Below are positions 22,808-42,215 of a stretch of DNA of 64,000 bases, in pieces; the first letter of the stretch is position 1, and every line of letters begins with the position of its first letter. This DNA comes from Candidatus Tumulicola sp. (lineage in GTDB: Bacteria > Vulcanimicrobiota > Vulcanimicrobiia > Vulcanimicrobiales > Vulcanimicrobiaceae). Location: NCBI GenBank assembly GCA_036490475.1, contig DASXDT010000001.1, positions 186,001-250,000 on the forward strand, given 5' to 3'. Both the position numbers and the translations under genes were made by a program. The notes beneath the pieces were generated by a model. The model saw only the letters and a program-made list of their open reading frames with translations, did no database searches and was not told the DNA's origin.

Positions 22808-23008
22808 CACGGCGACAGTAACCGTTTCCCGGATGAGGTGCGTAGTTGGGTGTGTAGTGGCGCGACAGCGACCGAGACTCCGGCCAATCTGCAACCCATC
22901 CCCCGGTCTCGCGTCGTGAACCGATGAGCAGGTAGGTGGCGAGCCGTTCCGCTGCCTGCCTAGCCTCGCGCACGCTATCCGAGGGGTTGAATTTGCGCCT
23001 TTCCTAGG

Positions 23009-23033
23009 TTACGATAATAGAAGGTTATCGTAA
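23009..23033. promoter_or_regulatory. perfect inverted repeat in front of the second recombinase
   Basis: TTACGATAA and TTATCGTAA separated by 7 bp. It lies 15 bp upstream of the ATG. The geometry (9-bp arms, 7-bp centre) fits either an operator or the core crossover site of a tyrosine recombinase. Confidence 0.65.
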
Positions 23034-23047
23034 GTCAGGAGGTTGTT

Positions 23048-24007: not shown

Positions 24008-24081
24008 GGGTCAGAACGCGACTTTCGCCCGACCGTTCTTGTCCCTATGCGGGTCTTTGAACGACGCCGCGAGCCGCCGCT

Positions 24082-24447: not shown

Positions 24448-24770
24448 GGTTTTGCTCCTTCTATACGACGTTGCGCCGCTACAGAATCTGCAGCAGTCGA
24501 TGCAAGAAATTGTACTTGAAAAGCTGCTAAAAGTTCAAGATTTAGCCATTGAGCACAAAATTCGAACGACACTTCACAGAGAGTCTTTGCAATGCGCCAT
24601 TCCGCACCCATTCCGGCCGCTCTGGCGAGGTTTAGCGCGCGCGATGACTCTACACTCACGAGCGCCGTCGCGAACGCGTTGTAGGGCAGAATTGGGTGTC
24701 GATACCGGGCCTTGACCGGCGTGGTAGTCTGAGGCCTTATGGATTCACCGGACGACTTCGTCACACGCAA
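24444..24770 (-). CDS. protein of unknown function
   Basis: Up to 108 residues from a TTG; internal GTG or ATG starts are possible because the first 25 residues look like non-coding sequence and overlap the divergent small gene at 24739. The C-terminal part is helical (WLNLELLAAFQVQFLASTAADSVAAQRR). Family unknown. Confidence 0.4.
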   Translation of the reverse strand: MRVTKSSGESIRPQTTTPVKARYRHPILPYNAFATALVSVESSRALNLARAAGMGAEWRIAKTLCEVSFEFCAQWLNLELLAAFQVQFLASTAADSVAAQRRIEGAKP

Positions 24771-24891
24771 CGGACCCGACGACCGGTTCGCGCCGGATGG
24801 ACAAGCTCGACTCGACTACTGCAAGGTCTGCGGGGCTGCTCTGCTGCTGCGTCGCGATGATGACGCCGAGCCCAATTGTGGGTCACATTGA
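24739..24891 (+). CDS. very small zinc-ribbon-like protein
   Basis: 50 residues (MDSPDDFVTRNGPDDRF...), with CKVCGA at residues 28-33 and a Cys-Gly-Ser-His at the end, giving three Cys and one His as possible zinc ligands. Typical of tiny phage-encoded zinc ribbons. No strong ribosome-binding site. Confidence 0.45.
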   Translation: MDSPDDFVTRNGPDDRFAPDGQARLDYCKVCGAALLLRRDDDAEPNCGSH

Positions 24892-25010
24892 CGAGTTTCT
24901 GCCAGAAATGCGGGCGCGCGTTTGAGGCGTCTGGTAAATCATCGCATTCAAGCAGTTTCCTCGACCCTAACGACCCTTTTGAGCATGTCGCGTCGCTTCA
25001 AGACTGCAAG

Positions 25011-25090
25011 AACCCACCTGTCAACACGCAGTTTTGAAAGATGTTGCAGCAACCCACCTGTCAACACGCAGTTTTGAAAGATATTGCACG
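25011..25090. repeat. 40-bp tandem direct repeat
   Basis: Two adjacent 40-bp units (25011-25050 and 25051-25090) match at 37 of 40 positions, beginning AACCCACCTGTCAACACGCA. The region 24892-25367 has no supported gene, so these may be protein-binding sites. A stem followed by TTTTTT on the minus strand lies just beyond (25092-25116). Confidence 0.6.
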
Positions 25091-25341
25091 AAAAAAGGGT
25101 ACCCCAAATGGGTCCATTTCCAGCTTTGAGCGTCGTCGGTACGGCGTAGATTCGAGCAGGCTCGGCTCTCGAACGACTGGATTGGCCTGAGCTTGTCAAT
25201 GCCTCGACTTGCGCTTTCGCCCGGTCTTGCGGGCGCGCTTCTCAGCGGTCCTCTCGCGCCAAGCCCGGAGTACAAGGTCCGTGATTCGAGCCAAAGTATT
25301 GATTAGTTCGAGCAGTACCGATGGATTGAGGTCTTGCATGA

Positions 25342-25363
25342 GGGAGCCGTTGTTCCGGGCTCC
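25342..25363. other. hairpin before the small membrane-protein gene
   Basis: GGAGCC/GGCTCC stem with a roughly 10-nt loop in the gene-poor stretch; no T-tract. Confidence 0.35.
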
Positions 25364-25367
25364 TCCT

Positions 25368-25547
25368 ATGTACTGTGAGGACTGTAACGCCCGCCTGAGT
25401 TTCTCCCAGGAGGGCCGTTGTTCAGCGCCGGGATTATCCGCAGACGCACTTCATCCGGCCGCTTATGGCTACGGAGGGTTTCACTCATGGTCTATCCGCA
25501 CAAAGACTCACCGACCGGCGCTGTTCCTGTTGGAGCGGTCATCTTGA
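25368..25547 (+). CDS. possible small Cys-containing protein
   Basis: 59 residues from the ATG at 25368: MYCEDCNARLSFSQEGRC gives a CxxC plus a third Cys, zinc-ribbon-like, then an unremarkable tail overlapping the next gene by 61 bp. No ribosome-binding site; only the first 20 residues look convincing. Confidence 0.25.
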   Translation: MYCEDCNARLSFSQEGRCSAPGLSADALHPAAYGYGGFHSWSIRTKTHRPALFLLERSS

Positions 25548-25708
25548 CCGAGATTCAAATACCGTTCTGGAATCTCGTGGGACTACTTGTGAAGGTCTCG
25601 CTCGCGGCTATTCCGGCGTCCATCATCCTGTTCGTTATCTACGGCGTGCTATGGGCAGTCACGTTAGGATTGTTCGGGGCGGGGCTGTTCGGGACATTTC
25701 ACCGATAG
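25487..25708 (+). CDS. small membrane protein
   Basis: 73 residues from the ATG at 25487, which has GGAGGG 8 bp upstream; a longer reading from 25418 lacks such support. Hydrophilic first 20 residues, then a long hydrophobic region (FWNLVGLLVKVSLAAIPASIILFVIYGVLWAVTLGLFGAG) that could form two membrane helices. Function unknown. Confidence 0.55.
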   Translation: MVYPHKDSPTGAVPVGAVILTEIQIPFWNLVGLLVKVSLAAIPASIILFVIYGVLWAVTLGLFGAGLFGTFHR

Positions 25709-25737
25709 CTCGCAAAGGTCGGGCGAAGTGCGTCCAC

Positions 25738-26454
25738 TCAAGTCCCGTTCGGAACGTTTTCTTCGCCCGAACTTTTCGGCGAGTTGACCTCGGAACTTAG
25801 TGGACCCGGCGCGGGGAAGGACGTGACTCGCTCTTGCGGTGCCGGTAGGTCGTATGACACTACGAAGCGCACGCCCTGACCCTCCAGCACTGTCCATTTC
25901 CCCGTACCCCAGGAGTTGAACATGCTAAGGAACTCAACTTTAACTAGGAAGGACTTGTACGCGTCGGGTGATTGCGACGGTACCTTTGAGAAGGTCAGCC
26001 CGGCCATTTCGTGCTTTTTCGTTTCCCCTGCGGCGAGAGTGTATGGAAGTTCGCCGCGAGCCATTCCGCTTTGTTGCAGTCCCGGCCCGACCGGTGTAAC
26101 GTGTACGTTGACTAGCAGCGCCGGTCCTGAACCGGCGTTTTGCACGCTGAATGCTAGGAAATAACGCCCGTCTCCGCTGTTAGAGCAATTCGCGTCCTTA
26201 AGGAGGCATACCGGCGACAAACTTTCTTGATGATGCCGGTCTGATAGTTTGTTACCCTGGATTGTATCTCCGGCGAGGTCAACGGTAGCTTTTCGCAACT
26301 TGGCCGTATAAACTGCGAGTCCCAGTGTCGCAAGGAATAGAAGGCCTGTTATAACGTCGAGAACTGTATCCGTGTGAGGTTGTGGAGGTGGCACAATGAC
26401 AGTCGTGCTGCTTCCAGCATGCGTTACTACCGATGTCAACATGTGAGGAGTCAT
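25738..26454 (-). CDS. membrane-anchored protein of unknown function
   Basis: 238 residues. One membrane helix at about residues 30-50 (VLDVITGLLFLATLGLAVYTA), then a short cytoplasmic coil and a beta-rich domain (YFLAFSVQNAGSGPALLVNVHVTPVG) resembling the immunoglobulin-like domains of small membrane-tethered proteins common in phage cargo. Its stop is 30 bp from the convergent small membrane gene. First of three leftward genes that separate the recombinase region from the integrase. Confidence 0.6.
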   Translation of the reverse strand: MTPHMLTSVVTHAGSSTTVIVPPPQPHTDTVLDVITGLLFLATLGLAVYTAKLRKATVDLAGDTIQGNKLSDRHHQESLSPVCLLKDANCSNSGDGRYFLAFSVQNAGSGPALLVNVHVTPVGPGLQQSGMARGELPYTLAAGETKKHEMAGLTFSKVPSQSPDAYKSFLVKVEFLSMFNSWGTGKWTVLEGQGVRFVVSYDLPAPQERVTSFPAPGPLSSEVNSPKSSGEENVPNGT

Positions 26455-26550
26455 ATTGGGGAATGCCCCTGAGGGACAACTCCAAAGCTGAGCCCTCCTT
26501 GAGGCTCGTCGCGGTGCCCACGCGCTGAAGCTCTTCCCAATCTCAAGGCT

Positions 26551-27108
26551 TCATGCCCGCTGCTTCGTGCAATCGTCGCCGCTTATGACTATTCTCTTTG
26601 TGAAACCAGTCAAGGTATCCGTCACGGTTCGGGTCGCGGTGAAATCGCCGGAGACCGAACCCTGATAATCAAACTGAACACGGTATCTAAATTGCACGTT
26701 GTAGGTTGTCCAAAGCAGCAGCCCCAGGGCGATGAACGTCAAGGTTGGAGCCGCTTTGTAACAGGAGAGAATGCCGCCGAAAAGTTTGCCGATTGATTCC
26801 CTTGCTGCCAAGGGCTGACCTAAGAGTAATGAGCCAAGTGCTGGAACGAGAAACAACGCCACCAAGAAGAGTGGTATAAAATAGTTGGAGGCCAACAGTA
26901 TTTCAGCGGGCTCCTGAGTTCCGCAAGTGTTTTCCATGGCTAAAAGTCTCGCCGCGAAGAAGCTAACAAAAGCCATCTCCGCTATCCAGACGCAAAGCCA
27001 AAGCCTCGTAGACTTGCGGCGTTCCGCCGCTTGTTGGACATGGTGCTCAAGCCACAGCCTTGCCGTGGTCCGTTCTCTTTCTGCCTGCTCGGCTTTGTCG
27101 TAGTCCAC
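26551..27108 (-). CDS. membrane protein of unknown function
   Basis: 185 residues with a charged N-terminal helix and three membrane segments (about residues 38-58, 75-95 and 120-135), then a short extracytoplasmic tail with Cys near the end. No family recognised. Part of the cargo block next to the integrase. Confidence 0.55.
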   Translation of the reverse strand: MDYDKAEQAERERTTARLWLEHHVQQAAERRKSTRLWLCVWIAEMAFVSFFAARLLAMENTCGTQEPAEILLASNYFIPLFLVALFLVPALGSLLLGQPLAARESIGKLFGGILSCYKAAPTLTFIALGLLLWTTYNVQFRYRVQFDYQGSVSGDFTATRTVTDTLTGFTKRIVISGDDCTKQRA

Positions 27109-27178
27109 GTCGATATTTAACTTCCGTTTGCCCGGTCACAAGGTTTCGGCATCGCGACTTTTCCCGAAAAGATACTTA

Positions 27179-27919
27179 TCACTTAACTACCGCCTTTTCG
27201 AGGTACTCGCGAGCGGATTCGAAAATCGCCCTCAAAGAGTCGGATAACTGTTGGCGCAGTTCGGCAATCAACGCTACATTTAGAGTTAAGCCTTGCCAAG
27301 TTGACTCCGCTCTGGGAAGCGGCGGGTCAACGCCAATTATCCTCGGAGGCTGTATGGCCCAATTTCTGGGTGGACTGCCCCGGTGGGAGAGAATGTCGCG
27401 CATGTTCTTCACGGCCTTATAGGCTTTGCTCTTTTGCACCGTCTTGAGAACCGACGTGACCTTGTGGTCGCGAATCTGACTTGAAAGTCTGCCGACAATT
27501 GCGTCTGGCGGGGGCACCTTCTTCTCGTCAAGGTTAAACTCTATTTTGTTAGGGCTTACGAGTGAGAGCGCCGCGTATACGCCGAAGAATGTGCATTCTA
27601 TCACCGATAGGCCATTCGTGAAAAACGAGAACAGGGCGGTCTCTTCGAGATTTCGCTGCTCAGCGGACGGCATGGTTAGCGGGTAGAGCCTTTCGAACTC
27701 TCTTGCCGCCACGTCAAGACCGCTCCATCGGTACACGATGCTGTTTGATGCCGCAGTAAACTGCCTCCAAACCGGTGAAGGTTGCTGATTGTTCGCGTTG
27801 CGATGCGCCATGTCTAATCCATCGCACACGGAAACGATAGCATCGTAATCGTCAGACGGAAAATCCGCTGGCATCTGAATAGATGGCATGCGAAGAAGTT
27901 CGCGACTGCCTGTTCGCAC
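27179..27919 (-). CDS. helical protein with a possible HEPN-like motif
   Basis: 246 residues, soluble and mostly helical. Residues 95-190 contain LFSFFTNGLSVIECTFFGVYAAL and later KNMRDILSHRGSPPR. The RDILSH element fits the R-x4-H signature of HEPN nucleases and the general fold looks similar, so a HEPN-type RNase is possible, but the match is by eye. The position beside the integrase fits accessory or defence cargo. Confidence 0.5.
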   Translation of the reverse strand: MRTGSRELLRMPSIQMPADFPSDDYDAIVSVCDGLDMAHRNANNQQPSPVWRQFTAASNSIVYRWSGLDVAAREFERLYPLTMPSAEQRNLEETALFSFFTNGLSVIECTFFGVYAALSLVSPNKIEFNLDEKKVPPPDAIVGRLSSQIRDHKVTSVLKTVQKSKAYKAVKNMRDILSHRGSPPRNWAIQPPRIIGVDPPLPRAESTWQGLTLNVALIAELRQQLSDSLRAIFESAREYLEKAVVK

Positions 27920-27976
27920 GCCCTTGCCTTCTCGGAGCGAAGGGTTTCTGGCACCTCATGCAAACTAACCCACCCA

Positions 27977-29263
27977 ATGGCTATGAAAAAGAAGGCTCGG
28001 AAGGTCGCTCACATCGTCCAAGTCGAGGGTTACGATGACCCGCTTGGCATTGGCGGTCGGTTTGTAACGACCCAAGAGCGACAGTCCGGGACCGGCTCCA
28101 TCGACCGCGTGACTATCAAGGGCGAAGAGTTCTGGCGCGCCCGGTACTGGATGGATGACGCCAAAGGCGTGCGAGTGCGAAAGGCGCTCTATGCGAAGTC
28201 GGAATCAAAGGTTCTGCAAAAGCTTTCGAACCTTCGGAAGACTCCGACTGCGAGTCGCGATGCGAAGAAGCTCACTCTGGAGCAGTACCTCACGCATCAC
28301 TTCCTCCCCGGCATCGAGCAGCAGGTTCGGCTCAACACGTTTTCGACGTATGACCGCGCCTGCCGGAATCACATCATTCCTCGTATCGGTAAGGCACGGC
28401 TCGTGTCATTTACACCATCGAACGCGAACGCATGGACCGCCGAGTTAGCAGCGGACGAGACTGGCGCTCGTGCGACGCAGCAGGCCTTCATGGTTCTCAA
28501 GCGCGCGCTCGGGTACGCGGTCACGCCGTTAGGCCTCCTCGAACGCAATCCGCTCAGTGAAATGCACGCTCCGAGGGCCGACAAGAAGACGCAGCACATC
28601 CTCGGCTTGGATGAAGTCGGGAAGCTACTCAAAGCGGCGCAGCAGACGGACTGGTACGTTTTGATTCTGCTCGCGATTGCAACGTCGATGCGTCAAGGTG
28701 AACTGTTCGGTCTGCAGTGGAAGCATGTCAAACTTCCCGAGGGGTATCTCCGCGTCGTCGAGAGTCTGCTCATCGGACGCCAAGGCGAGCCGTATCTTGC
28801 GGCACCCAAGACTGAGGCTTCGAAGCGACGGGTTGAACTGTCGCCCATGCTCGTGCAAGTTCTCACCGACCACAAGGCGCGACAGACCGACAACCCGCTC
28901 GGTCTCGTGTTTCCGGCGGCTAAGGGCGGCTTCATCCGCAAGGATAACTTCCGGCGCGACGTATGGGTCCCGCTCCTTGAAGCGGCCGAATTGCCAAGCG
29001 TTACCTTTCACAGTCTAAGGCACGCCGGGAACTCGCTGCTCGTCTCTCGCGCCGGGGTCTCACTGAAGGTCGCTCAGGAGCGTCTCGGCCATGAAACCAG
29101 AGGCGTCACGTTCGACGTGTACACCCACCTCGAACCGGGCGAATCCAAGCGCGCAGCGGCTCAAATGGACAAGCTCCTAAACCGCTCAGGTGGGCTAGTA
29201 ACGGGGTTAGTAAGCTCTTCGAAGGGCTCGAAGCCGAGGCCTAAGGCAAAGAAAAAAGACTGA
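27977..29263 (+). CDS. int: phage-type tyrosine integrase
   Basis: 428 residues. An N-terminal arm-binding domain (GEEFWRARYWMDDAKGVRVRKALYAKSESK), SAM-like core-binding domain (residues 100-185), catalytic domain from about residue 205. Catalytic residues: Arg in SMRQGELFGL, Lys in KTEASKRR, HSLR in FHSLRHAGNS, His in RLGHETRG, and the Tyr nucleophile in FDVYTHLEPG. It ends 20 bp before the tRNA-Ile 3' end and points at attR, the usual position for the enzyme that integrated the element. Its start follows an inverted GGGTTAGT copy. Confidence 0.9.
   Translation: MAMKKKARKVAHIVQVEGYDDPLGIGGRFVTTQERQSGTGSIDRVTIKGEEFWRARYWMDDAKGVRVRKALYAKSESKVLQKLSNLRKTPTASRDAKKLTLEQYLTHHFLPGIEQQVRLNTFSTYDRACRNHIIPRIGKARLVSFTPSNANAWTAELAADETGARATQQAFMVLKRALGYAVTPLGLLERNPLSEMHAPRADKKTQHILGLDEVGKLLKAAQQTDWYVLILLAIATSMRQGELFGLQWKHVKLPEGYLRVVESLLIGRQGEPYLAAPKTEASKRRVELSPMLVQVLTDHKARQTDNPLGLVFPAAKGGFIRKDNFRRDVWVPLLEAAELPSVTFHSLRHAGNSLLVSRAGVSLKVAQERLGHETRGVTFDVYTHLEPGESKRAAAQMDKLLNRSGGLVTGLVSSSKGSKPRPKAKKKD
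29192..29211 (+). repeat. GGGYTAGT repeats near attR (candidate integrase arm sites)
   Basis: GGGCTAGT at 29192 and GGGTTAGT at 29204 inside the 3' end of the integrase gene, about 90-110 bp from the att core. A 15-bp block around the first copy (GGTGGGCTAGTAACG) matches 14 of 15 at 6876-6890. Confidence 0.5.
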
Positions 29264-29279
29264 AGCTATCAGTCTTTTT
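29252..29279. terminator. bidirectional terminator between integrase and tRNA-Ile
   Basis: GACTGA/TCAGTC stem with a 5-nt loop, preceded by A6 and followed by T5, so it can serve the integrase on the plus strand and the tRNA on the minus strand. It overlaps the integrase stop codon. Confidence 0.8.
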
Positions 29280-29282
29280 CTC

Positions 29283-29359
29283 TGGTGGGCCATCCTGGGT
29301 TCGAACCAGGGACCTCATGCTTATCAAGCATGCGCTCTAACCAACTGAGCTAATGGCCC
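29283..29359 (-). tRNA. tRNA-Ile(GAT)
   Basis: 77 nt with an intact cloverleaf: acceptor GGGCCAT/ATGGCCC, anticodon loop TTGATAA, T-arm CCTGG-TTCGAAC-CCAGG, and an encoded CCA. The 5' part is chromosomal and the 3' part (to 29331) is contributed by the integrated element, which thereby restores the gene; the original 3' end is at 6718-6766. Confidence 0.95.
29301..29331 (-). repeat. attR core
   Basis: 31 bp identical to 6736-6766, spanning anticodon loop to T-loop of tRNA-Ile. Right boundary of the element. Confidence 0.9.
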
Positions 29360-30403: not shown

Positions 30404-31837
30404 CTAATACGTATCCGGAGGCGTGTTGTCGACGTGCGTCAGGAAGTATTGCGCGTCTTCGCTCGAGGGAATTTTGACGAACGTAATGGGCGGCTGCGTG
30501 AAGTCGAACATGTCGTCGAACGCCGCCGCTCGCTGATCGGCTAACACCACCGAACCGTTTCCTAGGAACGGCAATCCGAACGTTTCTTCGATGAAGTGCA
30601 GCGTGCTCGCGACCTCGTAATGGGTGTGCGAGACGTAGCCGGCTCTTGCGTAGGGCGACACCACCATGAGCGGCACACGGTAACCAAGGCCTTCGTACGC
30701 GCCCGTGACCGGATCCGCTAGCTGCTTCGGTACGACCGGATCGAACCAGCCGCCGGACTCTTCCCACATGACGATGACGGCGGTATTGCCCCAATACTGA
30801 CTCTGACCGACCGCGTTGACGATCGACGCGACCCAGGACGGTCCGAGGCTTCCGGATTGCGGACCGGGATGATCGGAGTTGGCACCGCTCGGCGTCACCC
30901 ACGAGACCTGCGGTAAGTTCCCGTTCGCGATATCCTTGAGGACTGTTGTGTCGGGACTGACGATATTGGCGTGGTCCGGACCGTTCCAAACGCTTTGAAT
31001 CGACTCGAACGGATCCAGATTGCTTCCTGCGCCTGACTTCTGCGAGTAGAATTTCCACGTGATGCCGGCTGCGTCGAGCGAGTCGGCAATGGTCGAGAAC
31101 GTAAAGCACGGATACGGGCCCGCGACCTCGTGGCCGGTCGCCGCCGGGAATTGCGGCGGATCGGCTTGACCGAAGTCGAGCACGTTTGCGGTAACACCTG
31201 GCTTCTTCTCGTTGCAGCCCCAGACCGAACCATCCGGAACCTCGACCGTGTGGCCGCTTTGCCCGGCGATCATGTACTCGTGCGAAACGAACGTGGGACC
31301 GCTGTTCGATTCGAAGGCCTCGTCACCCAAGGCGTACTCTTGGGCGATCGTCCAATACGGTTGGATGTCCGATTTTTGCACGTACGTAAACGGCATTTGC
31401 TTGACGGTAGGATCGTTGGAAAAAACCCAACACTGGGGCTCGTTATTCTCGTTGACCTTGTCGCTACAGACGGAACCAGTTTTTTTGAACTTAACGATCT
31501 CGTCGTCCCAGCCATCGTTCTTGCCTCGATCGAAGTCTTCGAGAAACTGGGTGTGCGAGTGATTGATATCGCGCTTTTCTTCCAACGGAAGTGGTTGCAA
31601 CGTGTAGGTCGTTCCGTGGCCCATGCCGTTGCTCGCCGTCTTCGCTCCCGGAAAGCCGTAGAACAAATTGTTGAAGCTGCGATTCTCTTGCATGACGATA
31701 ATAACGTTCTGAATAGGCGTCGATCCGCCCGAGTGGTTAGCGAAAGAGCGCGCGGTGCCGGGCGCTGCCGGCCCCTGGGATAATGGCGAACTACAGGCGG
31801 CCAGAACGACCGCCATCAACCACGAGAGTTTTTTCAT
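30404..31837 (-). CDS. phospholipase C-like phosphoesterase lipoprotein, array copy 6
   Basis: 477 residues; the ATG at 31837 sits 8 bp after GGAG (a GTG three codons upstream is less likely). Lipobox LAAC, Cys15. Phosphoesterase family (PF04185, acid phosphatase AcpA / phospholipase C type): N-terminal metal motif IVMQENRSFNNLF, SGPTFVSHEYMIAGQSGH in the middle, and a late metal-site motif that here reads MWEESGGWFDPV instead of the usual WDExGGxYDHV. So this copy lacks both the Asp and the His of that motif and may be altered or inactive. It ends in DNTPPDTY. Last gene of the six-gene operon. Confidence 0.85.
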   Translation of the reverse strand: MKKLSWLMAVVLAACSSPLSQGPAAPGTARSFANHSGGSTPIQNVIIVMQENRSFNNLFYGFPGAKTASNGMGHGTTYTLQPLPLEEKRDINHSHTQFLEDFDRGKNDGWDDEIVKFKKTGSVCSDKVNENNEPQCWVFSNDPTVKQMPFTYVQKSDIQPYWTIAQEYALGDEAFESNSGPTFVSHEYMIAGQSGHTVEVPDGSVWGCNEKKPGVTANVLDFGQADPPQFPAATGHEVAGPYPCFTFSTIADSLDAAGITWKFYSQKSGAGSNLDPFESIQSVWNGPDHANIVSPDTTVLKDIANGNLPQVSWVTPSGANSDHPGPQSGSLGPSWVASIVNAVGQSQYWGNTAVIVMWEESGGWFDPVVPKQLADPVTGAYEGLGYRVPLMVVSPYARAGYVSHTHYEVASTLHFIEETFGLPFLGNGSVVLADQRAAAFDDMFDFTQPPITFVKIPSSEDAQYFLTHVDNTPPDTY

Positions 31838-31849
31838 GTCGATCACTCC

Positions 31850-33295
31850 TCAGTAGGTGTCGGCCGGCGTATCGTCGTGGAAGTTCTCGAAGAGCGTTGC
31901 GTTGCCGGTGGTCCGAATCGGAACGAACGGAATCGGTTTCTGCGTGTAGTCGAACATATCGTCGAATCCGTCGGCACGTTGATCGGCGTATTTTATGCCC
32001 GAATCGCCGCCGATAAACGGCAGGTCGAACGTCTCTTCGAGAAAGCGCAACGTGCCGGCGATCTCGTGCTGTTTGTGCGAGATGTAGCCGGCCCTGGCGT
32101 ACGGCGATACGACGATCAGCGGAACGCGAAAGCCGAGTCCCTCATAGGCATTTGACTGAGAATCTAGATACTGCGGCGGTTTCACCTCATCGTACCAACC
32201 GCCCCACTCATCCCACATGACGATGATTGCGGTGCTCTTCCAATACTCGCTTTTGCCGATCGCATTGACGATCGAGGCGACCCATTTCGGCCCCTCATTC
32301 CCCGACTGCGGACCCGGATGATCGGACGTCTGACCGCTCGGAGTCACCCACGAAACATTGGCAAGCTTACCGGTGCGGATATCTTTGAGGACCTGCGTAT
32401 CGGGATAGATAATATTTTTGCGATCGGGACCGTTCCATACTGCCGAGCTCGATTCGAACGGATCGAGGTCGCGCCCCGTCCCGGTTTCTTGCGCGTAATA
32501 TTTCCACGTGACATTCGACGCGTCTAAGTTTTGCGCGATCGTCGGATAGGTGAAGCACGGATAGGGACCCGCGATTTCGTGCCCCGTATCTTCTGAGTAG
32601 ACGGGCGGCCTCGCCCGTCCGCCCTTTAGAACGTTCACCGTCGTTCCGGTTTCGGCGTCGCAGCCCCACGGTTGTCCGTGGGGAACCTCGGTTGCGTGAC
32701 CCGATTCGCCCGCAATCAAGTACTGGTGCGACGGAAACGTCGGACCATTATTCGACGAAAACGTGTTGTCGCCGAGTGCGTATTGTTGCGCCATCGCCCA
32801 GTACTCCGTTATCTGCGTTGGATCGACGTATGAAAACGACATCTGTTTGAACCTGGCGGACTGCTGGATGTGAAAGCACGGCGGTTCGTTGTAGCGGTTG
32901 ATTGGATTGCTGCATATCGAACCGGTTTTCTTCAACGAGACGACGTACTGATCGAAGCCGTCGATCTTTCCCTTATCGTAATCCTCGAGAAACTGATAAT
33001 GGGAATGGTCCATCTCGACCGGCCACGTTAGTGGTATCGACTGCAAATGATAGACCGTGCCGTCGTGGCCGACGCCCGAGTTGACCGTCCGCGCGCCCGG
33101 AAACGCGTGGAACAAGTTCTCGAAGCTGCGATTTTCTTGCATGATGATGACGACATGCTTAATCGGGGTTGACGTCGCTGCGCGCCTGGCCGCGCCCGGC
33201 GAGAACGCTCCGGGGAAACCGGAGGCGCCCGGCGCGCCATCGCATGCAGCAAGGCAAGCAAACGCCAGAACGGCGCTTATCCATCGTGAATACAC
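31850..33295 (-). CDS. phospholipase C-like phosphoesterase lipoprotein, array copy 5
   Basis: 481 residues from a GTG at 33295, giving a clean lipoprotein signal (VLAFACLAAC, Cys18). The frame stays open upstream to 33382, but that extension is the decayed 3' end of another array member and is excluded. Motifs: IIMQENRSFENLFHAFPG, NNGPTFPSHQYLIAGESGH, WDEWGGWYDEV (His replaced by Glu), C-terminal FHDDTPADTY. It differs from its neighbours more than they differ from each other. Confidence 0.8.
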   Translation of the reverse strand: MYSRWISAVLAFACLAACDGAPGASGFPGAFSPGAARRAATSTPIKHVVIIMQENRSFENLFHAFPGARTVNSGVGHDGTVYHLQSIPLTWPVEMDHSHYQFLEDYDKGKIDGFDQYVVSLKKTGSICSNPINRYNEPPCFHIQQSARFKQMSFSYVDPTQITEYWAMAQQYALGDNTFSSNNGPTFPSHQYLIAGESGHATEVPHGQPWGCDAETGTTVNVLKGGRARPPVYSEDTGHEIAGPYPCFTYPTIAQNLDASNVTWKYYAQETGTGRDLDPFESSSAVWNGPDRKNIIYPDTQVLKDIRTGKLANVSWVTPSGQTSDHPGPQSGNEGPKWVASIVNAIGKSEYWKSTAIIVMWDEWGGWYDEVKPPQYLDSQSNAYEGLGFRVPLIVVSPYARAGYISHKQHEIAGTLRFLEETFDLPFIGGDSGIKYADQRADGFDDMFDYTQKPIPFVPIRTTGNATLFENFHDDTPADTY

Positions 33296-33350
33296 GCCTG
33301 GCGTATTAGCCGGATGCGTCAGTAAATACTGTCCGTTCCGTTCGAGGATA
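33296..33350 (-). pseudogene. remnant 3' end of another phosphoesterase copy
   Basis: Read leftward, this spacer encodes GQYLLTHPANTPG, closely matching the C-terminal AHYFLTHPDNTPGDTY of copy 3 and AQYFLTHVDNTPPDTY of copy 6. In the place of the final DTY-stop it reads VYS and runs into the start of copy 5. Confidence 0.6.
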
Positions 33351-33356
33351 GGGTAC

Positions 33357-34832
33357 CTAGTACGTGTCCCCGGGCGTGTCATCGTGAAGGTTTAAGAAGT
33401 ACCGCGCACCGTGCTTGACTGGGGGAATGGTGACGAATGGAATCGGCGACTGCGTGTAGTCAAACATGTCGTCGAACCCGTCGGCCCGGCAATCGGCGTA
33501 CTGCGTTTTTTTGTCCGTGCACGACCCGATGGTACCCAAACCAAACGTTTCTTCGATGAAGCGCAACGTGCTGGCGATCTCGTGCTGGTCGTGCGAGACG
33601 TACCCGGCCTTCGCGTACGGCGACACGACGATCAGGGGCACGCGGAAGCCGAGACCCTCACGTGCTCCGGTTTGTGGATCGGCGTACTGCGGCGGATGAA
33701 CCGGATCGAACCAGCCGCCCCACTCGTCCCACATGATGATGATTGCGGTGCTGTCCCAGTACTGGCTGTTGCCGACGGCATTGACGATCGATGCGACCCA
33801 GTCCGGGCCGCCATCGCCGGACTGCCGGCCGGGATGATCGGATTTCAAGCCGCTGGGCGTCACCCACGATACGTTTGCGAGGTTGCCGCTCGTGATGTCG
33901 GAGAGAACCTTGGTATCGGGCGAGATGATGTTCGCGCGATCGGCGCCGTCCCAAATCGGTTTGTTGGCCTCAAACGGCTCGAGGTCACGCCCCGAATCGG
34001 CCTTTTGCGCGTAGTAGCGCCAGGTCAGACCGGCACCATCTAGGGCGGCGGCGATCGTTGGATAGCTAAAGCAGGGGCTCGGCCCGGCGACTTCGTGACC
34101 GGTTGCCGGAGAGAATACCGGGGGATCGGCCGGGCCGTAGGCTAGCAGATTGACGGTCACACTACTGTTCGCGTTGCAGCCCCACGGCTGTCCGTTGGGC
34201 ACTTCGACGGAGTGACCCGATTGGCCGGCGACCAGATATTGATGCGAAACGAACGTCGGGCCGTTGTTGGACGAGAATGTTTCGTCGCCCAACGCGTACT
34301 CCTCGGCCATCGTCCAGTACGGCGTGATCTCCGTGTGATCGACGTACGAAAACGCCCGCTGCTTGTCGACCGGATTCTTTGAGATCACCCAGCAGCTCGG
34401 CTCGTTTTGATAGTACGGGTTATTACCTTTGCCTTGACACTTTGGGTCGTTAGCAGGTTGAGGAAGAATCTCACTATCCCAGCCGTCGTCTTTGCCTTGG
34501 TCGTAATCTTCTAAGAATTGCGAATGCGAATGGTTAAGGTCGAAGTAATATGCGAGATCAACCTTTTTCACCTTATACTGGCTGCCGTGGCCGTTACCGA
34601 ACTTGGCCGTCTTGGCACCAGGAAAACCATAAAACAAGTTATTGAAGCTACGGTTTTCTTGCATGACGATAATGATGTGTTGGATGGGCGTCGTTCCACC
34701 GGAATGATGGGCGAACCGGCCGCCAAACGATGGGATCGCGGCGGGCTGCGACGAACCCGAGCCGCACCCAGAAAGCGCAAGCGCCACCGAAGCGAGCAGC
34801 GGCGCGAACGCAAGCCTTCGTGCGGAATTCAT
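33357..34832 (-). CDS. phospholipase C-like phosphoesterase lipoprotein, array copy 4
   Basis: 491 residues, lipobox LSGC, Cys23. IVMQENRSFNNLFYGFPGAKT, NNGPTFVSHQYLVAGQSGH, and WDEWGGWFDPVHPPQ, so the Asp/Glu pair is kept but His of YDHV is Pro. Ends LHDDTPGDTY. Most similar to copy 3 (34835-36274) over nearly the whole length, indicating a recent duplication. The start lies 2 bp after the stop of copy 3. Confidence 0.85.
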   Translation of the reverse strand: MNSARRLAFAPLLASVALALSGCGSGSSQPAAIPSFGGRFAHHSGGTTPIQHIIIVMQENRSFNNLFYGFPGAKTAKFGNGHGSQYKVKKVDLAYYFDLNHSHSQFLEDYDQGKDDGWDSEILPQPANDPKCQGKGNNPYYQNEPSCWVISKNPVDKQRAFSYVDHTEITPYWTMAEEYALGDETFSSNNGPTFVSHQYLVAGQSGHSVEVPNGQPWGCNANSSVTVNLLAYGPADPPVFSPATGHEVAGPSPCFSYPTIAAALDGAGLTWRYYAQKADSGRDLEPFEANKPIWDGADRANIISPDTKVLSDITSGNLANVSWVTPSGLKSDHPGRQSGDGGPDWVASIVNAVGNSQYWDSTAIIIMWDEWGGWFDPVHPPQYADPQTGAREGLGFRVPLIVVSPYAKAGYVSHDQHEIASTLRFIEETFGLGTIGSCTDKKTQYADCRADGFDDMFDYTQSPIPFVTIPPVKHGARYFLNLHDDTPGDTY

Positions 34833-34834
34833 AA

Positions 34835-36274
34835 CTAGTACGTATCTCCCGGCGTGTTATCGGGATGCGTTAAGAAGTAATGCGCGTCGTAGTGGTCGGT
34901 GGGAATCGTGACGAACGGAATCGGCGACTGCGTGTAGTCGAACATGTCGTCGAACGCATCGGCGCGTTGATCGGCATAGGTTGGGACCGAGCAGTTGCAG
35001 ATCGGCGGCAAGCCAAACGTTTCTTCGATGAAATGTAGCGTGCTGGCGATCTCGTGCTGGTCGTGCGAAATGTAGCCGGCTTTCGCGTACGGCGACACGA
35101 CGATCAGGGGAACGCGAAACCCGAGACCCTCGCGTGCTTTCGTTTGCGGATCGGGGTACTGCGGCGGATGCACCGGATCGAACCAGCCGCCCCACTCGTC
35201 CCACATGATGATGACTGCCGTGCTGTTCCAGTACTGGCTGTTGCCTACGGCGTTGACGATCGACGCGACCCAATCCGGGCCGCCGCTGCCGGATTGCGGA
35301 CCGGGGTGATCCGATTTCAGGCCGCTGGGCGTGACCCACGATACGTTCGCCAGGTTACCGCTGGAGATGTCGGTGAGCACCTTGGTGTCGGGCGCGATGA
35401 TGTTTGCGTGATCCGGGCCATCCCAAATCGGTTCGTTGGCCTGGAACGGCTCGAGGTCGCGTCCCGAATCCGCCTTCTGCGCATAGTACTTCCACGTGAT
35501 GCCGGCAGCGTCGAGGTTTGTAGCGATCGTCGGATAGCTGAAGCATGGGGGCGGGCCGGCGACTTCGTGACCCGTTGCCGGAGAAAATGCCGGGGGATAG
35601 GCTTGGCCATACGCCAGTAGGTTGACGGTCACACCACTGTGCGCGTTGCAGCCCCACGGCTGGCCGTCGGGAACTTCGACCGAGTGACCCGATTGGCCGG
35701 CAACGAGATATTGATGCGAAACGAATGTCGGGCCGCTGTTGGACGAGAACGCATCGTCGCCCAACGCGTATTCCTTAGCCATGGTCCAGTACGGAACGAT
35801 CTGCGTGGGATCGACATAGGAAAGTGCCGCCTGCCTAAAGGACTTGTTCTTCCAAAACACCCAACAGCTCGGCTCGTTGGCCTTGTTTACCGGATCCTTG
35901 CATATCGAACCGGGGCCGTTCAGATCCTCGATCAGATCGTCCCACCCATCGTCTTTGCCTTGATCGTAATCTTCTAAAAATTGCGTGTGCGAATGGTTGA
36001 GATCGAGCTTATTATACTTAAGGTCTACTTTCTGCAGCTCGTACTGGTGCCCGTGGCCGTTACCGAACTTGGCCGTCTTGGCGCCCGGAAAACCATAGAA
36101 TAAATTATTAAAGCTACGGTTTTCTTGCATGATGACGATGATATGTTGAATGGGAGTCGACCCACCGGAATGATGCGAGAACGGGCCGCCGGCGACGCCT
36201 TGGCCGGGAGTGGTCGACATGGGCGAACTGCAGGCGGCCAACGCCGCCACGGCCACGAGCGCTAATTTTTTCAT
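34835..36274 (-). CDS. phospholipase C-like phosphoesterase lipoprotein, array copy 3
   Basis: 479 residues; ATG at 36274 after AGAGGGA. Lipobox LAAC, Cys15. IIVIMQENRSFNNLF, NSGPTFVSHQYLVAGQSGH, WDEWGGWFDPVHPPQ, C-terminal THPDNTPGDTY. Exported, lipid-anchored phosphoesterase; the substrate (phospholipid or other phosphoester) cannot be told from sequence. Confidence 0.85.
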   Translation of the reverse strand: MKKLALVAVAALAACSSPMSTTPGQGVAGGPFSHHSGGSTPIQHIIVIMQENRSFNNLFYGFPGAKTAKFGNGHGHQYELQKVDLKYNKLDLNHSHTQFLEDYDQGKDDGWDDLIEDLNGPGSICKDPVNKANEPSCWVFWKNKSFRQAALSYVDPTQIVPYWTMAKEYALGDDAFSSNSGPTFVSHQYLVAGQSGHSVEVPDGQPWGCNAHSGVTVNLLAYGQAYPPAFSPATGHEVAGPPPCFSYPTIATNLDAAGITWKYYAQKADSGRDLEPFQANEPIWDGPDHANIIAPDTKVLTDISSGNLANVSWVTPSGLKSDHPGPQSGSGGPDWVASIVNAVGNSQYWNSTAVIIMWDEWGGWFDPVHPPQYPDPQTKAREGLGFRVPLIVVSPYAKAGYISHDQHEIASTLHFIEETFGLPPICNCSVPTYADQRADAFDDMFDYTQSPIPFVTIPTDHYDAHYFLTHPDNTPGDTY

Positions 36275-36307
36275 ACCATTCCCTCTATCGGCACATCGAG
36301 ACGCATC

Positions 36308-37810
36308 CTAGTAATCGATTTCCGGAGGCCAAACTTGCTTTTCGGCATCCTTGTTCACCTTCGGACAGGGTGGTAGTTTCACCGGTTTCGTAACCGGCGG
36401 TTCCTTCGCTAGTTTAATGGCCTTGAATTTGATCGGCTTCTGCGTAAAATCGAAAATGTCGTCGAAACCGTCGGCGCGCTCGTCGGCAAAGTGATATTTC
36501 GTTCCGGTTCCGAGCGGCGGCAGGTCGAAGGTCTCGCGGATGAAGTGGATCGAACTCGCGATCTCGTGCTGCTGATGTGAGATGTAACCGGCTTTCGCGT
36601 AGGGCGAAACGACGAGCAACGGGACACGGAAGCCTAAGCCCTCATTTGCGCCGGTGATTGGGTCGGGATACTGCTGCGGGATCACGTGGTCGTACCAGCC
36701 GCCCCACTCATCCCACATAACGATGACCGCGGTGCTGTTCCAATACTGACTCTTGCCGATCGCATTGACGATCAATGCGACCCAGTCGGGCCCGCAGTTT
36801 CCGGAACCCCCACCGGGATGATCGGAGGCATGCCCGTGCGGCATGACCCACGAGACTGACTGGAGATTGCCGTTGTCGATGTCGCTCAGCACGTTGGTGT
36901 CGGGAGATGAGATGTCGCCGTTCGACCAGTCGGGACCATACCGGATGCTCTTAACGGCATCAAAGGCGTTGAGCCACCACGAATCTATCTTGGGAGGCTG
37001 CACGTAGTAGCGCCAGCTGATGCCGGCATTGTCGAGCTCGTCGGCGATGGTGGTGTAGGTCGAATCCGGTCCCGTCATTTTGATCGGGAAGCACGGATCT
37101 GGACCCTTGATTTCGTGTCCGAAGATTGGATCGTACTGGGGTGGGTCGGCAGCGCCGTATTTCAGATAATATTCCCATTCGCTGGGAGCGTCGCAGCCCC
37201 ACGGTCCGCCGCCAAGGCTGGGAATGTCCGAGGCGTGGCCGGAGCGGCCGGCGATCATATATTGATGCGATGCGAACGTTGGCCCGTTGTTCGAGGAAAA
37301 GGTGTTGTCACCGAGCGCGTACTGCTTGGCCATATCCCAGTACGGCTGAACCTGGGCCTGAATGACGTACGTATAGGGTTCTTTATTAAACGGCGGCCCG
37401 TGAATCAAGTAGCACGGCGGGTAGTTGACCCAGAGTTCTTTGGTGCAATATTTTTGCGAGCCGTTGTTGCCGTAGATCTGTTGGTCGAACCCGTCGCCTT
37501 TGCCATTATCGAAATCCAAAAGAAACTGATAATGGTAGTGGTTTTGGTCGTGCGCGTACGCGAGGTTGATCGGTTTGAGCGGATACACGGTACCGTCATG
37601 CCCCATACCCGTCGTGGCAGTGTTCGCTCCCGGATAACCGTAAAACATGTTATCGAAGCTTCGATTCTCTTGCATGATGATGACGATATGCTGGATCGGG
37701 CTAGACGACGTGCGATGATGTGCGGCGTTCGCCGACGACAAGATCGACGTTCCACCGGAACCGCCGCACGCAGAGAGCGCGAATATCAATGCCATGGATA
37801 GTTTTTTCAC
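36308..37810 (-). CDS. phospholipase C-like phosphoesterase lipoprotein, array copy 2
   Basis: 500 residues from the GTG at 37810, 7 bp after AGGGG (an ATG overlapping the previous stop at 37828 would add six residues before the signal peptide). Lipobox LSAC, Cys15. IIMQENRSFDNMFYGYPGA, NNGPTFASHQYMIAGRSGH, and the complete WDEWGGWYDHVIPQQ, so its catalytic motif is intact. Longer C-terminus than copies 3-6, ending in PPEIDY. Confidence 0.85.
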   Translation of the reverse strand: MKKLSMALIFALSACGGSGGTSILSSANAAHHRTSSSPIQHIVIIMQENRSFDNMFYGYPGANTATTGMGHDGTVYPLKPINLAYAHDQNHYHYQFLLDFDNGKGDGFDQQIYGNNGSQKYCTKELWVNYPPCYLIHGPPFNKEPYTYVIQAQVQPYWDMAKQYALGDNTFSSNNGPTFASHQYMIAGRSGHASDIPSLGGGPWGCDAPSEWEYYLKYGAADPPQYDPIFGHEIKGPDPCFPIKMTGPDSTYTTIADELDNAGISWRYYVQPPKIDSWWLNAFDAVKSIRYGPDWSNGDISSPDTNVLSDIDNGNLQSVSWVMPHGHASDHPGGGSGNCGPDWVALIVNAIGKSQYWNSTAVIVMWDEWGGWYDHVIPQQYPDPITGANEGLGFRVPLLVVSPYAKAGYISHQQHEIASSIHFIRETFDLPPLGTGTKYHFADERADGFDDIFDFTQKPIKFKAIKLAKEPPVTKPVKLPPCPKVNKDAEKQVWPPEIDY

Positions 37811-37827
37811 GACGGATCCCCTCACCA

Positions 37828-39297
37828 TTAGTAGTCGATTTCTTCTGGGAACGTGTGCTTCAGGAAAAACGAGCCGGGTTCTTTGACGGGTTTGATGTTC
37901 TTGAACTTGATCGGCTGCTGCGTGTAGTCGAAACAGTCATCGAAGCCGTCGGCACGCTGATCGGCGTAGGTTTGGCCCGAACCTGCCCCCAGGAACGGCA
38001 GCTTGAACGTCTCCTCGATGAAACGCAAGGTGCTGGCAATTTCGTGCTGCTTATGCGAAATATAGTGCGGCTTGGCATACGGCGACACGACGATAAGCGG
38101 CACGCGATAGCCCAGGCCCTCGTAGACCCCGGTTTGCGAATCGGGATATTGCGGCGGCAGCACGTGGTCGTACCAGCCGCCCCATTCGTCCCACATGATG
38201 ATGATGGCGGTGTTTTTCCAGTACGGGCTCTTGCCGACCGCGTCGACGATCGACGCGACCCAGTCGGGACCGAGGTTACCCGAACCGCCTCCCGGATGGT
38301 CGGACGCACCGCCGTGCGGCATGACCCACGATACTTGCGCCAGATTTCCGTTCTGAATATCGGAGAGCACGTTGGTGTCCGGCATCGAGATGTCGCCGTT
38401 CGTCCAATCCGGCCCGTTGAAGACCGCTCGTACCGCTGCGAAGGCGTTGAGCCAGTACGAATCTTGAATCTTGCCTTTAATCTCGCGCGGCTGCACGTAG
38501 TATCGCCAGCTGATGCCGGCGTTATCCAGCGAGTCGGCGATGGTGGGATACGTTCCCGATTGTTTGAGCGGGAAGCACGGATCGACGCCGACGTATTCGT
38601 GCCCGACCTTCGGACCGAACGCAGGCGGGTCGGCTTCGCCGAACTCGATGTAGTTTTCGGTTTCGTTCGGCGCATTGCAACCCCAAGGCATCGTGCTGGG
38701 CACTTCGGAGGCGTGTCCGGATTGGCCGGCGATCAGATACTGATGCGAAACGAACGTCGGACCGTTGTTTGACGAAAATGTTTTGTCGCCCAAAACGTAC
38801 TGTTGGGCCATATCCCAGTACGGCTTAATCTGCGCCTGAATCGTATACGAGTACGGCATCTGCATGTTGCCGCTGCCGGTTAAGAAATTCCAACAGTGCG
38901 GTTCGTTAAACCAGTTCTTATCGGTGCAGCCCTTGCCGGATTTGTACGGCTGCGTAATCTGGTGTTCCCAGCCGTCGTTGCTACCGCGATCGTAATCTTC
39001 GAGGAACTGCCAGTGGTAGTGGTTGATGTCGTGGCCCCACTTGAGGGGAAGTGCTTGCAACTGATACACGCGTCCGTCGTGACCCTTGCCCGACGTCGCG
39101 TAGTTTGCGCCCGGAAACTTGTAGAAGAAATTATCGAAGCTCCGGTTTTCTTGCATGATGATGACGATGTGCTGGATCGGGCTCGACGAGGCGCTGCGGT
39201 GGCTTCCAGCGGCAGACGGTCCAAACGACGGCTGGCCGCTCGGTCCGCTACACGAGGTAGCAATCGCAGCCATACACAACAGCGCGGCACGTTTCAT
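37828..39297 (-). CDS. phospholipase C-like phosphoesterase lipoprotein, array copy 1
   Basis: 489 residues, lipobox ATSC, Cys16. IIMQENRSFDNFFYKFPGAN, NNGPTFVSHQYLIAGQSGH, complete WDEWGGWYDHVLPPQ, C-terminus FPEEIDY. First gene of the operon and, with copy 2, the pair that keeps the canonical active-site motif. Upstream lies a 98-bp region shared with the divergent cyclase/ATPase regulator. Confidence 0.85.
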   Translation of the reverse strand: MKRAALLCMAAIATSCSGPSGQPSFGPSAAGSHRSASSSPIQHIVIIMQENRSFDNFFYKFPGANYATSGKGHDGRVYQLQALPLKWGHDINHYHWQFLEDYDRGSNDGWEHQITQPYKSGKGCTDKNWFNEPHCWNFLTGSGNMQMPYSYTIQAQIKPYWDMAQQYVLGDKTFSSNNGPTFVSHQYLIAGQSGHASEVPSTMPWGCNAPNETENYIEFGEADPPAFGPKVGHEYVGVDPCFPLKQSGTYPTIADSLDNAGISWRYYVQPREIKGKIQDSYWLNAFAAVRAVFNGPDWTNGDISMPDTNVLSDIQNGNLAQVSWVMPHGGASDHPGGGSGNLGPDWVASIVDAVGKSPYWKNTAIIIMWDEWGGWYDHVLPPQYPDSQTGVYEGLGYRVPLIVVSPYAKPHYISHKQHEIASTLRFIEETFKLPFLGAGSGQTYADQRADGFDDCFDYTQQPIKFKNIKPVKEPGSFFLKHTFPEEIDY

Positions 39298-39395: not shown

Positions 39396-42215
39396 GTGTG
39401 CGGGAGCCCCGAAGAGCGCCCCGTGCAAGCGAACACCGACCCTGCGGTCGCCGGCACGCCAACCTTTCTCTTTTCGGATATCGAGAACAGTACGCAGCGC
39501 TGGGAGCGCCATCAATCTGAAATGAGGGAAGCGCTCGAGCGTCACGACGCGGTGCTTCGGTCGGCGATCGAAAAGCGTGGCGGCCGCGTTTTTAAAACGG
39601 TCGGCGACGCCTTTTGCGCGGTCTTCCCGCTTGCGACCGATGCAGTTTCGGCCGCGGTCGACGCGCAGCGCGCGCTCGGCGCGGAAAACTTTGACGGTGT
39701 CGACGGACTGCTCGTGCGTATGGCGGTTCACACCGGTGAGGCGCACCCGCGCGACGGCGATTACTTCGGACCGACCGTCAATCGCGTCGCCCGGCTCATG
39801 TCGATCGGCTACGGCGCACAAGTGCTCGTCTCCGGAACCTCAGCCGATTTGCTGCAGGGCGAACTTGCTGCGCCGCTGTCGCTGATGGATCTGGGCGTGC
39901 ATCGGCTTAAAGATTTATCCGACGGCGAGCGGGTGTATCAGTTGGTCGCACCGGACTTGCGGTTGCAATTTCCGGCGTTACGGTCGCTCGATTCGTTACC
40001 GAATAATTTGCCGAGACAGCTGACGACGTTCGTCGGGCGGGAAGCCGAAGAACGCGACATCGCATCGTTGATGGATCGCGCACCGCTGGTGACGCTGGCC
40101 GGATCCGGCGGCGTTGGAAAGACACGGTGCGCGTTGCACGCGGGCGCGGCAGTTCTCGACAAGACGTCCGACGGCGTGTGGCTCGTGGAACTCGCATCGC
40201 TCACCGACGGGGCGTTGGTCGGAGGTGCGGTAGCGCAAGCGCTCGGCGTGGCCGAGTCGCCGGGACGGCCGATCCTCGACGTGCTGATCTCGCACTTGAA
40301 GTTGAAACAAGCGCTGTTGATTCTGGATAACTGCGAGCACTTGATCGATGCAGTGGCGACCGCGGCCGACGCTATTCTGCGCGCATGTCCGCGCGTGCGG
40401 ATCATCGCGACGAGCCGTCAGAGTTTGAACGTCGACGGCGAGCAGGTGTATCGCATGCCGTCGTTAGCGGTGCCGCCGGCTTCGCGCTCGACAGCACTTG
40501 CGCCGGCCGATGCAAGCGCATACGGTGCGGTGGCGTTGTTCGAAGATCGCGCTCGGGCGGTCGATGCGTCGTTTCGTTTGGATGCTTCGAACGTGGATGC
40601 GGTCGGCGAGATTTGCCGGCGTTTGGACGGCGTTCCGTTCGCATTGCAGTTAGCCGCAGCGCGCGTGGCGGCATTTCCGCCACGCGAGTTGGCCAAGCGG
40701 CTCGACGAACGCTTCCGCCTGTTGACCGGGGGTAGTCGCAGCTCGCTGGCGCGCCAACAAACGATGCGAGCGATGATCGACTGGAGTTACGATTTGCTCG
40801 ACGAGCGCGAGCGGGCGATCTTCCGGCGGTTGTCTATTTTCAGCGGCGGATTTACCAGCGCGAGCGCGGCTTCCGTGTGCGTGGACGCGACGATCGACGA
40901 GTTCGACGTGTTCGACGTTCTGGCGTCGCTAGTCGACAAGTCGATGGTGTCGCCAGAACCGGGAACCGGAGGATCGTTGCGGTACCGGTTGTTGGAGTCG
41001 ACGCGACAATACGCGTTGGACAAGTTGAAAGAGCTGGGCGAACGCGAATCGGCCGCACGTGCGCATGCCGGTGCGTTTGTGGAACTGGCGGAAGAGCTCG
41101 AGCGCGACAAAGAAACGATGGCGGACCGAGGTTGGTACGCATTGGTCGAGCCGGAGTTTGAGAACTGGCGCGCGGCGCTTTCGTGGACGCTGGACGAAAA
41201 GGCCGATGTGCTGTTGGGGGCGCGGCTGGCCGGCGCGCTGCATCCGTTATGGGCCTCGGTTTTGGCCGGCGAAGGACCTCGCTGGGTACCGCTCGCCATC
41301 TCGTTGGCGCCTTCCGATGCGCCGAGCGGTGTGCTCGCGAAACTCGAGCTCGCGAACTCGGCTTTGCAGGCAGCGTTTCTGCATCGTGCCGAGAGCTACG
41401 CGGCGGCGGCGCGCGCTTTGGAGCGATATGACGCGCTCGGCGACGCGTTTGGTCTGACGGCGGCGCGCGATCTGGCAGGTTCGGCGCTGATTTTGATGGG
41501 CCGCTTGGACGAGGGCGAGGTGTTGTTACGGGCTGCTTTGGAGGACGGGCGGCGCTTGAAGTTGCGCCGCTTGAGCGGCAACGTCTTGGTCGCGCTGGGA
41601 ATCGCGCGCGATGCGGTCGGCGATCTGGACGGCGCGCGCGCTTATCTCCGCGAAGCGCTTGAGAACTTTCGCGCGATCGGCGCGGAACGGCTTGTAACGT
41701 CGGCCGCGAACAATCTTTCCGAGACGGAGTTCCAAGCGGGCGACGCGGAGCGGGCATTAGCGTTGTCTACCGAAGCGCTGGAAGGTCACCGGCGTTGGAA
41801 CGACGTCAGGAGCTGCGCGTTGACGCTGGCCAATATCGCGGCGTATTCGGTGTGGCTCGGGCGTTTCGACGAAGCGCGTGCTGCAGCTCGCGAGGTGATC
41901 GAACTCGCCACCGAAGCCCGGCTTGAATTTCTCGTGTTGTGTGCGCTACAACACCTAGCGGCGATCCTCGCGCTGGATCGCTCGGGTTCGGCTTCGGATG
42001 CGGTGCGGGCCGCGAGATTGCTGGGTTTCGTCGAGGCGCAAGCGCCGAAGATTTCGTTCGTTCGCGGTTACACCGAACAGCAAGAATACGACGAGATGGT
42101 CGATGCGCTGCGTGCGTCGCTTGGCGGCGATGCGTTACAGGCGCATGTTGTCGAAGGCGCCGCGTGGGACGAGGCACGGGCGTTACGGGAAGTTGCCCTA
42201 ACTCGCGATTCCTGA
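39396..42215 (+). CDS. adenylate cyclase-domain NB-ATPase/TPR regulator
   Basis: 939 residues from a GTG; a second GTG at 39423 is equally likely. Residues 22-190 form a class III nucleotide cyclase domain: FLFSDIENSTQRWE (metal-binding Asp), FKTVGDAFCAVF, and GPTVNRVARLM (Asn/Arg). An NB-ARC/MalT-like ATPase follows with Walker A GSGGVGKT (about 236-243) and Walker B LLILDNCEH, then TPR-like repeats to the end (ARAYLREALENFRAIG). There is no DNA-binding domain, so it may act as a signal-responsive cyclase or scaffold. Divergent from the phosphoesterase operon, suggesting but not proving a regulatory link. Confidence 0.8.
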   Translation: MCGSPEERPVQANTDPAVAGTPTFLFSDIENSTQRWERHQSEMREALERHDAVLRSAIEKRGGRVFKTVGDAFCAVFPLATDAVSAAVDAQRALGAENFDGVDGLLVRMAVHTGEAHPRDGDYFGPTVNRVARLMSIGYGAQVLVSGTSADLLQGELAAPLSLMDLGVHRLKDLSDGERVYQLVAPDLRLQFPALRSLDSLPNNLPRQLTTFVGREAEERDIASLMDRAPLVTLAGSGGVGKTRCALHAGAAVLDKTSDGVWLVELASLTDGALVGGAVAQALGVAESPGRPILDVLISHLKLKQALLILDNCEHLIDAVATAADAILRACPRVRIIATSRQSLNVDGEQVYRMPSLAVPPASRSTALAPADASAYGAVALFEDRARAVDASFRLDASNVDAVGEICRRLDGVPFALQLAAARVAAFPPRELAKRLDERFRLLTGGSRSSLARQQTMRAMIDWSYDLLDERERAIFRRLSIFSGGFTSASAASVCVDATIDEFDVFDVLASLVDKSMVSPEPGTGGSLRYRLLESTRQYALDKLKELGERESAARAHAGAFVELAEELERDKETMADRGWYALVEPEFENWRAALSWTLDEKADVLLGARLAGALHPLWASVLAGEGPRWVPLAISLAPSDAPSGVLAKLELANSALQAAFLHRAESYAAAARALERYDALGDAFGLTAARDLAGSALILMGRLDEGEVLLRAALEDGRRLKLRRLSGNVLVALGIARDAVGDLDGARAYLREALENFRAIGAERLVTSAANNLSETEFQAGDAERALALSTEALEGHRRWNDVRSCALTLANIAAYSVWLGRFDEARAAAREVIELATEARLEFLVLCALQHLAAILALDRSGSASDAVRAARLLGFVEAQAPKISFVRGYTEQQEYDEMVDALRASLGGDALQAHVVEGAAWDEARALREVALTRDS

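Follow-up and report, generated by a model that had tools for sequence, protein, structure and literature searches.

Six tandem genes encoding PF04185 phosphoesterases occupy positions 30404–39297, on the minus strand, of the window (the whole 64,000-nucleotide stretch of DNA analysed here), and nowhere in the genome do members of this family, expanded to at least 54 genes, cluster more densely. On balance, we favour the reading that their products constitute a diversified set of cell-surface phosphoesterases, grown by duplication within the genus, that would scavenge organic phosphorus; the activity and substrates in this reading are predicted from the sequence. Phylogenetic analyses, mapping of catalytic residues and comparisons to characterized relatives bear on how the array arose and on what its members may do.

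Organization of the array

The first-pass annotation described six tandem genes, and both the coordinates and the open reading frames (ORFs) agree with this description (Table 1); the genes are tightly spaced on one strand. Successive intergenic gaps measure −1, 33, 2, about 61 and 3 bases, the fourth of which presumes a GTG start for copy 5 at 33295; starting at the listed ATG (33382) would make copy 5 overlap copy 4. The spacing fits an operon, and we infer that the array is co-transcribed. The motif variants of copies 1–5 and the split between the two kinds of C-terminal tail, both reported in the first pass, are all seen. In copy 6, which had been said to lose the motif Asp, the motif reads WEESGGWFDPV: the residue is indeed altered, but by a conservative Asp-to-Glu swap.

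Table 1 Features of the array and its surroundings in the window
Feature	Position	Strand	Length (aa)	Description
Copy 1	37828..39297	−	489	Type A; EIDY tail, DHV, Thr nucleophile; predicted PF04185 lipoprotein
Copy 2	36308..37828	−	506	Type A; EIDY tail, DHV, Thr nucleophile
Copy 3	34835..36274	−	479	Type B; DTY tail, DPV; shares 78% identity with copy 4
Copy 4	33357..34832	−	491	Type B; DTY tail, DPV
Copy 5	31850..33295	−	about 481	Type B; DTY tail, DEV; Glu in place of D76; start probably the GTG at 33295, just ahead of the signal peptide
Copy 6	30404..31846	−	480	Type B; DTY tail, DPV; Glu in place of the metal ligand D299
Regulator-like protein	39396..42215	+		Adenylate-cyclase-domain/AAA/TPR protein, divergent, 98 bases upstream of copy 1
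Phage-like element	6718..29331			Probable integrated element beside the array
Tape-measure-like ORF	10907..16189		1760	In the element; judged by eye
Recombinase-like ORF	23048..24007			In the element, second recombinase; judged by eye
Tyrosine integrase	27977..29263			Adjoins tRNA-Ile
tRNA-Ile	29283..29359			Adjoins the integrase

Family membership and comparison with known enzymes

All six copies match the PF04185 profile of Pfam over its full length (positions 1–356; E 1e-56 to 1e-61), scoring 192–208 bits against a gathering score of 23, and they are thus full-length members of the family; Pfam reports no further domain in them. Also in line with membership, the catalytic residues E, N, H, S/T, H, D and D/E are present, with Glu replacing the first Asp of the pair in copy 6. 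The array proteins are probably exported and lipid-anchored, as the first pass had claimed: lipobox-like N termini are recognized by pattern in six of six copies, the weakest being that of copy 1 (IATSC), and, likewise by pattern, 48 of the 54 paralogues in the array's genome have a lipoprotein-like N terminus. Most paralogues carry an acidic motif (PVDTE, PPDTE, GDTY or EIDY) at their very C-terminal end, which a single pattern detects in 106 of 152 paralogues against 6 of 710 non-family ORFs; it could play a structural part or serve as a sorting signal.

By sequence, the closest entry in the Protein Data Bank (PDB) is the acid phosphatase AcpA (2d1g), followed by bacterial phospholipases C (PLCs) and the plant enzyme NPC4 (8hav). 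The array resembles AcpA in its single domain of about 480 aa and in its catalytic pattern, including the ionic pairing of Asp393 with Arg414 (PMC2673038): the Asp of the DHV motif is the equivalent of Asp393 and is invariant among the 142 paralogues, and the Arg414 equivalent is among the invariant columns of an 11-protein array alignment. In contrast to AcpA, however, which has Ser and an Asp-Asp pair, the array has Thr and an Asp-Glu pair, and it further differs in its lipoprotein-type export signal and in its 55–93 paralogues per genome. NPC4 aligns with the array at the catalytic residues E, N, H, T, H, D and E, but it requires its C-terminal domain for full activity (PMC9837106), and the array proteins show no sign of such a domain and have a bacterial lipoprotein-type signal. 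The PlcH-type phosphocholine-specific PLCs (PC-PLCs; TIGR03396) share with the array PF04185, a Thr nucleophile and, in copies 1 and 2, the DE..G..DHV motif, whereas the array proteins, at about 480 aa, are shorter than the model length of 688 positions.

Against the curated NCBIfam models, the copies score 120–142 bits with TIGR03396 (cut-off 580) and 131–152 bits with the Burkholderia-type acid phosphatase model TIGR03397 (cut-off 362.75). Because both scores fall far under their cut-offs, neither the PC-PLC nor the acid-phosphatase name is earned. AcpA, the closest PDB entry, acts on p-nitrophenyl phosphorylcholine and on several phosphorylated compounds, yet real phospholipids are not among its substrates (PMC2673038). 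Membership of PF04185 is thus not enough to separate a phosphatase from a PLC, and the phospholipase C label of the first pass is not supported.

Genome-wide expansion of the family

The array is part of a much larger, genome-wide expansion that the first pass overlooked. Profile searches, on which all PF04185 counts rest in place of gene calls, give 55 matches in the array's genome (3.32 Mb, 96% complete); at least 54 of these read as genes, the 55th being a fragment at a contig end, and together the genes total about 73 kb, or 2.2% of the assembly. The sister species has 93 matches, several related genera have 34–69 matches or candidates, and genera g10, g14, g16 and g21 have 37–57 matches. 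A scan of 121 genomes of the phylum, in which figures count first-look candidates, found 37–69 in twelve genomes of genus g36, 1–16 in other genera of the same family, 7–23 in family f3 (class-level relatives) and 0–6 in the remaining lineages, which have 0–4 matches. Among the named control genomes, just 2 of 14 have any PF04185 match.

Three contigs of the array's genome (C1, C5 and C6) end in or just after PF04185 genes (L024, L036 and L016), and the related segments at these ends are 84–89% identical in DNA sequence; the true copy number may therefore exceed the count. Elsewhere, L009 and L031 both have a similar family gene next to a transporter-like gene of 1.3 kb, with 92% identity. Both likenesses suggest fairly recent segmental duplications.

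In an rpoB tree of 25 genomes, the expanded genera g1, g10 and g36 group together, and g14 and g21 fall elsewhere among unexpanded relatives. A single origin, with all expanded genomes in one clade, is rejected by rpoB under the model (AU p = 7e-6), and the expansion likely arose at least twice; we go no further than likely because the tree has one outgroup row with an extreme branch and some rows that are fragments, and because losses could have followed one gain. Searches of the open-access literature returned no report of this PF04185 expansion, and likewise nothing relevant on phosphoesterases or phospholipase C under the names of the phylum. Phosphatases, phosphoesterases and phospholipases go unmentioned in both the Vulcanimicrobium paper and the WPS-2 phototrophy paper.

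Duplication history of the array

A tree of 142 paralogues places the six copies inside one starred, genus-specific clade of 17 members, nine from the array's genome and eight from the sister species. Separate arrival of the copies by horizontal transfer, which the first pass had set against a common origin, might seem to be favoured by the integrase-bearing mobile element that adjoins the array (Table 1). Every copy, however, has its nearest relatives in the same genome or genus, and the array lies outside the repeats of the element; the tree rules out independent transfer, and we accord it almost no credence.

The clade comprises two types, each represented in both genomes. In the array's genome, type A consists of copies 1 and 2 and one dispersed gene, all with EIDY tails, and type B of copies 3–6 and two dispersed genes, with DTY tails. 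A mixture-model tree of the 17 members supports type A at 99/99 and type B more weakly at 75/83, and grouping the members by genome is rejected (AU p = 0.0004). Copy 2 is closer to the dispersed gene G000:C5:58682 than to copy 1. Copies 3 and 4, presented in the first pass as recent duplicates, are the closest pair within the array (78% amino acid identity), but they are not recent (dN 0.15, dS 0.73); a still closer pair is formed by the two dispersed type B genes.

At G001:C28 in the sister species, a type A gene directly precedes a type B gene, the order also seen in the array, and the ancestral unit was thus probably an adjacent A–B pair. After the species split, copies were duplicated separately in each genome, and some of them relocated. 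The sister species, checked for a corresponding array, keeps this pair, but no flank of the array is conserved there, and no protein like the regulator upstream of copy 1 is found near the sister-species arrays.

This history bears on the proposal, also made in the first pass, that the array serves gene dosage, yielding more of one enzyme, as tandem and probably co-transcribed copies might. The copies are just 54–78% identical, with dS of 0.7–2.4, and types A and B are older than the split from the sister species. Because of the low identity among the copies, we regard dosage as very improbable.

Conservation of the active site

Mutational work on NPC4 has shown that E23, N24, D76, H79, T158, H264, D299 and E300 matter (PMC9837106). 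Mapped by alignment, the equivalent residues are all kept in copies 1–4, and copies 5 and 6 have one change each, D76 to Glu and the metal-binding D299 to Glu, respectively. Across the family, 139 of 142 paralogues retain the full core of E23, N24, S/T158, H264, D299 and D/E300 (NPC4 numbering). The His of the DHV motif lies outside the NPC4 catalytic set and is replaced in 26 of the 142 paralogues by Pro, Asn, Asp, Gly, Gln, Glu or Leu; as it is not catalytic in NPC4 and varies across the family, the motif differences are mostly not catalytic losses. Nei–Gojobori dN/dS, for which dS is partly saturated, is about 0.14–0.27 across all array pairs, which argues against decay.

The diverging active site described in the first pass could nevertheless be taken as a sign that copies 5 and 6 are turning from catalysts into binding or structural surface proteins, with copies 1 and 2 staying enzymes. 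Copy 6 combines the Glu at D299 with DPV, and copy 5 combines DEV with the Glu at D76, as such decay might produce. However, the remaining core residues are kept in both copies, metal binding is still possible with Glu, pairs involving copy 6 have dN/dS of about 0.14–0.23, and nearly all of the 26 paralogues with a replaced DHV His retain the core. Decay is thus an improbable reading of copies 5 and 6.

Two dispersed paralogues, L021 (G000:C1:59992) and L056 (G001:C24:116798), lack several catalytic residues at once and, judged by these residues, may be pseudoenzymes. A structure prediction for copy 1, made from 11 sequences, reached a mean pLDDT of 54.5, too poor to place the variable residues.

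Thr and Ser nucleophiles in the array clade

Each of the nine array-clade genes in the array's genome has Thr as its nucleophile, encoded by ACG or ACA, whereas each of the eight in the sister species has Ser, encoded by AGC or AGT. Outside the clade, nearly all paralogues have Ser. On the tree, this pattern requires at least two changes. Gene conversion between types A and B as the source of the common Thr would account for the pattern but is unsupported: the trees of individual segments are weak, and the A clade survives the AU test in each of them.

The residue matters to a further alternative, in which the members of the array clade are true PLCs attacking the membrane lipids of competitors or of dead cells, and most other paralogues are phosphomonoesterases. 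Thr is the nucleophile of PlcH (Thr178) and of NPC4 (Thr158), against Ser175 in AcpA (PMC2673038, PMC9837106), and the Asp-Glu pair of the array clade (Glu-Glu in copy 6) is likewise PLC-like, most of the family having Asp-Asp. However, the uniform Ser of the sister-species genes indicates that Thr is not needed for the role of the clade, the scores stay far from the PC-PLC cut-off and PF04185 is the only Pfam domain, and we consider this alternative unlikely, although less so than decay or dosage.

Proposed function

The conserved cores, the export signals and the purifying selection point to working enzymes outside the cytoplasm. In the phosphorus-scavenging reading that we favour, the array would have grown by repeated duplication of the adjacent type A–type B pair within this Eremiobacterota genus. 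A Ser or Thr nucleophile beside a bound metal ion would form a phospho-enzyme, from which water would then free either phosphate or a phosphorylated head group. The part played by the metal is uncertain, as the one present in the NPC4 crystal was judged unnecessary for activity (PMC9837106). The copies would differ in their substrate-binding region and so jointly mobilize, at the cell surface, the phosphorus of a wide range of organic phosphoesters. Poor soils would be the setting, and we infer the soil habitat from palsa and bog records of relatives.

PstS-type matches number 1–5 per genome. Other aspects of the genomic context speak against the scavenging reading. Matches to the glycerophosphodiester phosphodiesterase (GDPD) family PF03009 are absent from 11 genomes of the same family and occur in 11 of 14 control genomes, so a pathway from phospholipid to phosphate would need other enzymes. 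Among 184 neighbouring ORFs, in which the largest sequence cluster has three members, there is no recurrent phosphate-uptake or other partner. Upstream of the paralogues we found no common Pho-box-like regulatory motif, and an apparent conserved promoter motif was rejected, the enriched words being coding sequence of family genes.

More tentatively, and with somewhat less confidence than in the scavenging function, we suggest that several soil Eremiobacterota lineages may have independently amplified exported phosphoesterases, to tens of divergent, catalytically intact copies per 3–4 Mb genome, and that both sub-types of the array went from Ser to Thr in parallel here. Large paralogue sets are familiar among polysaccharide-degrading genes; as far as we searched, the literature holds none of exported phosphoesterases. 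If the suggestion is correct, these sets would resemble the polysaccharide enzyme arsenals of other bacteria, directed instead at organic phosphorus. If the copies differ in substrate, they would provide a natural panel for monoesterase versus phospholipase specificity in the AcpA/PLC superfamily, and a hint of organic phosphorus as a shaping influence on the genomes of this phylum, which is common in soil and almost uncultured.

Beside the array, the window contains a probable integrated phage-like element (Table 1), in which about 48 bases of the end of tRNA-Ile are repeated at 6718 with 46 of 48 identical.
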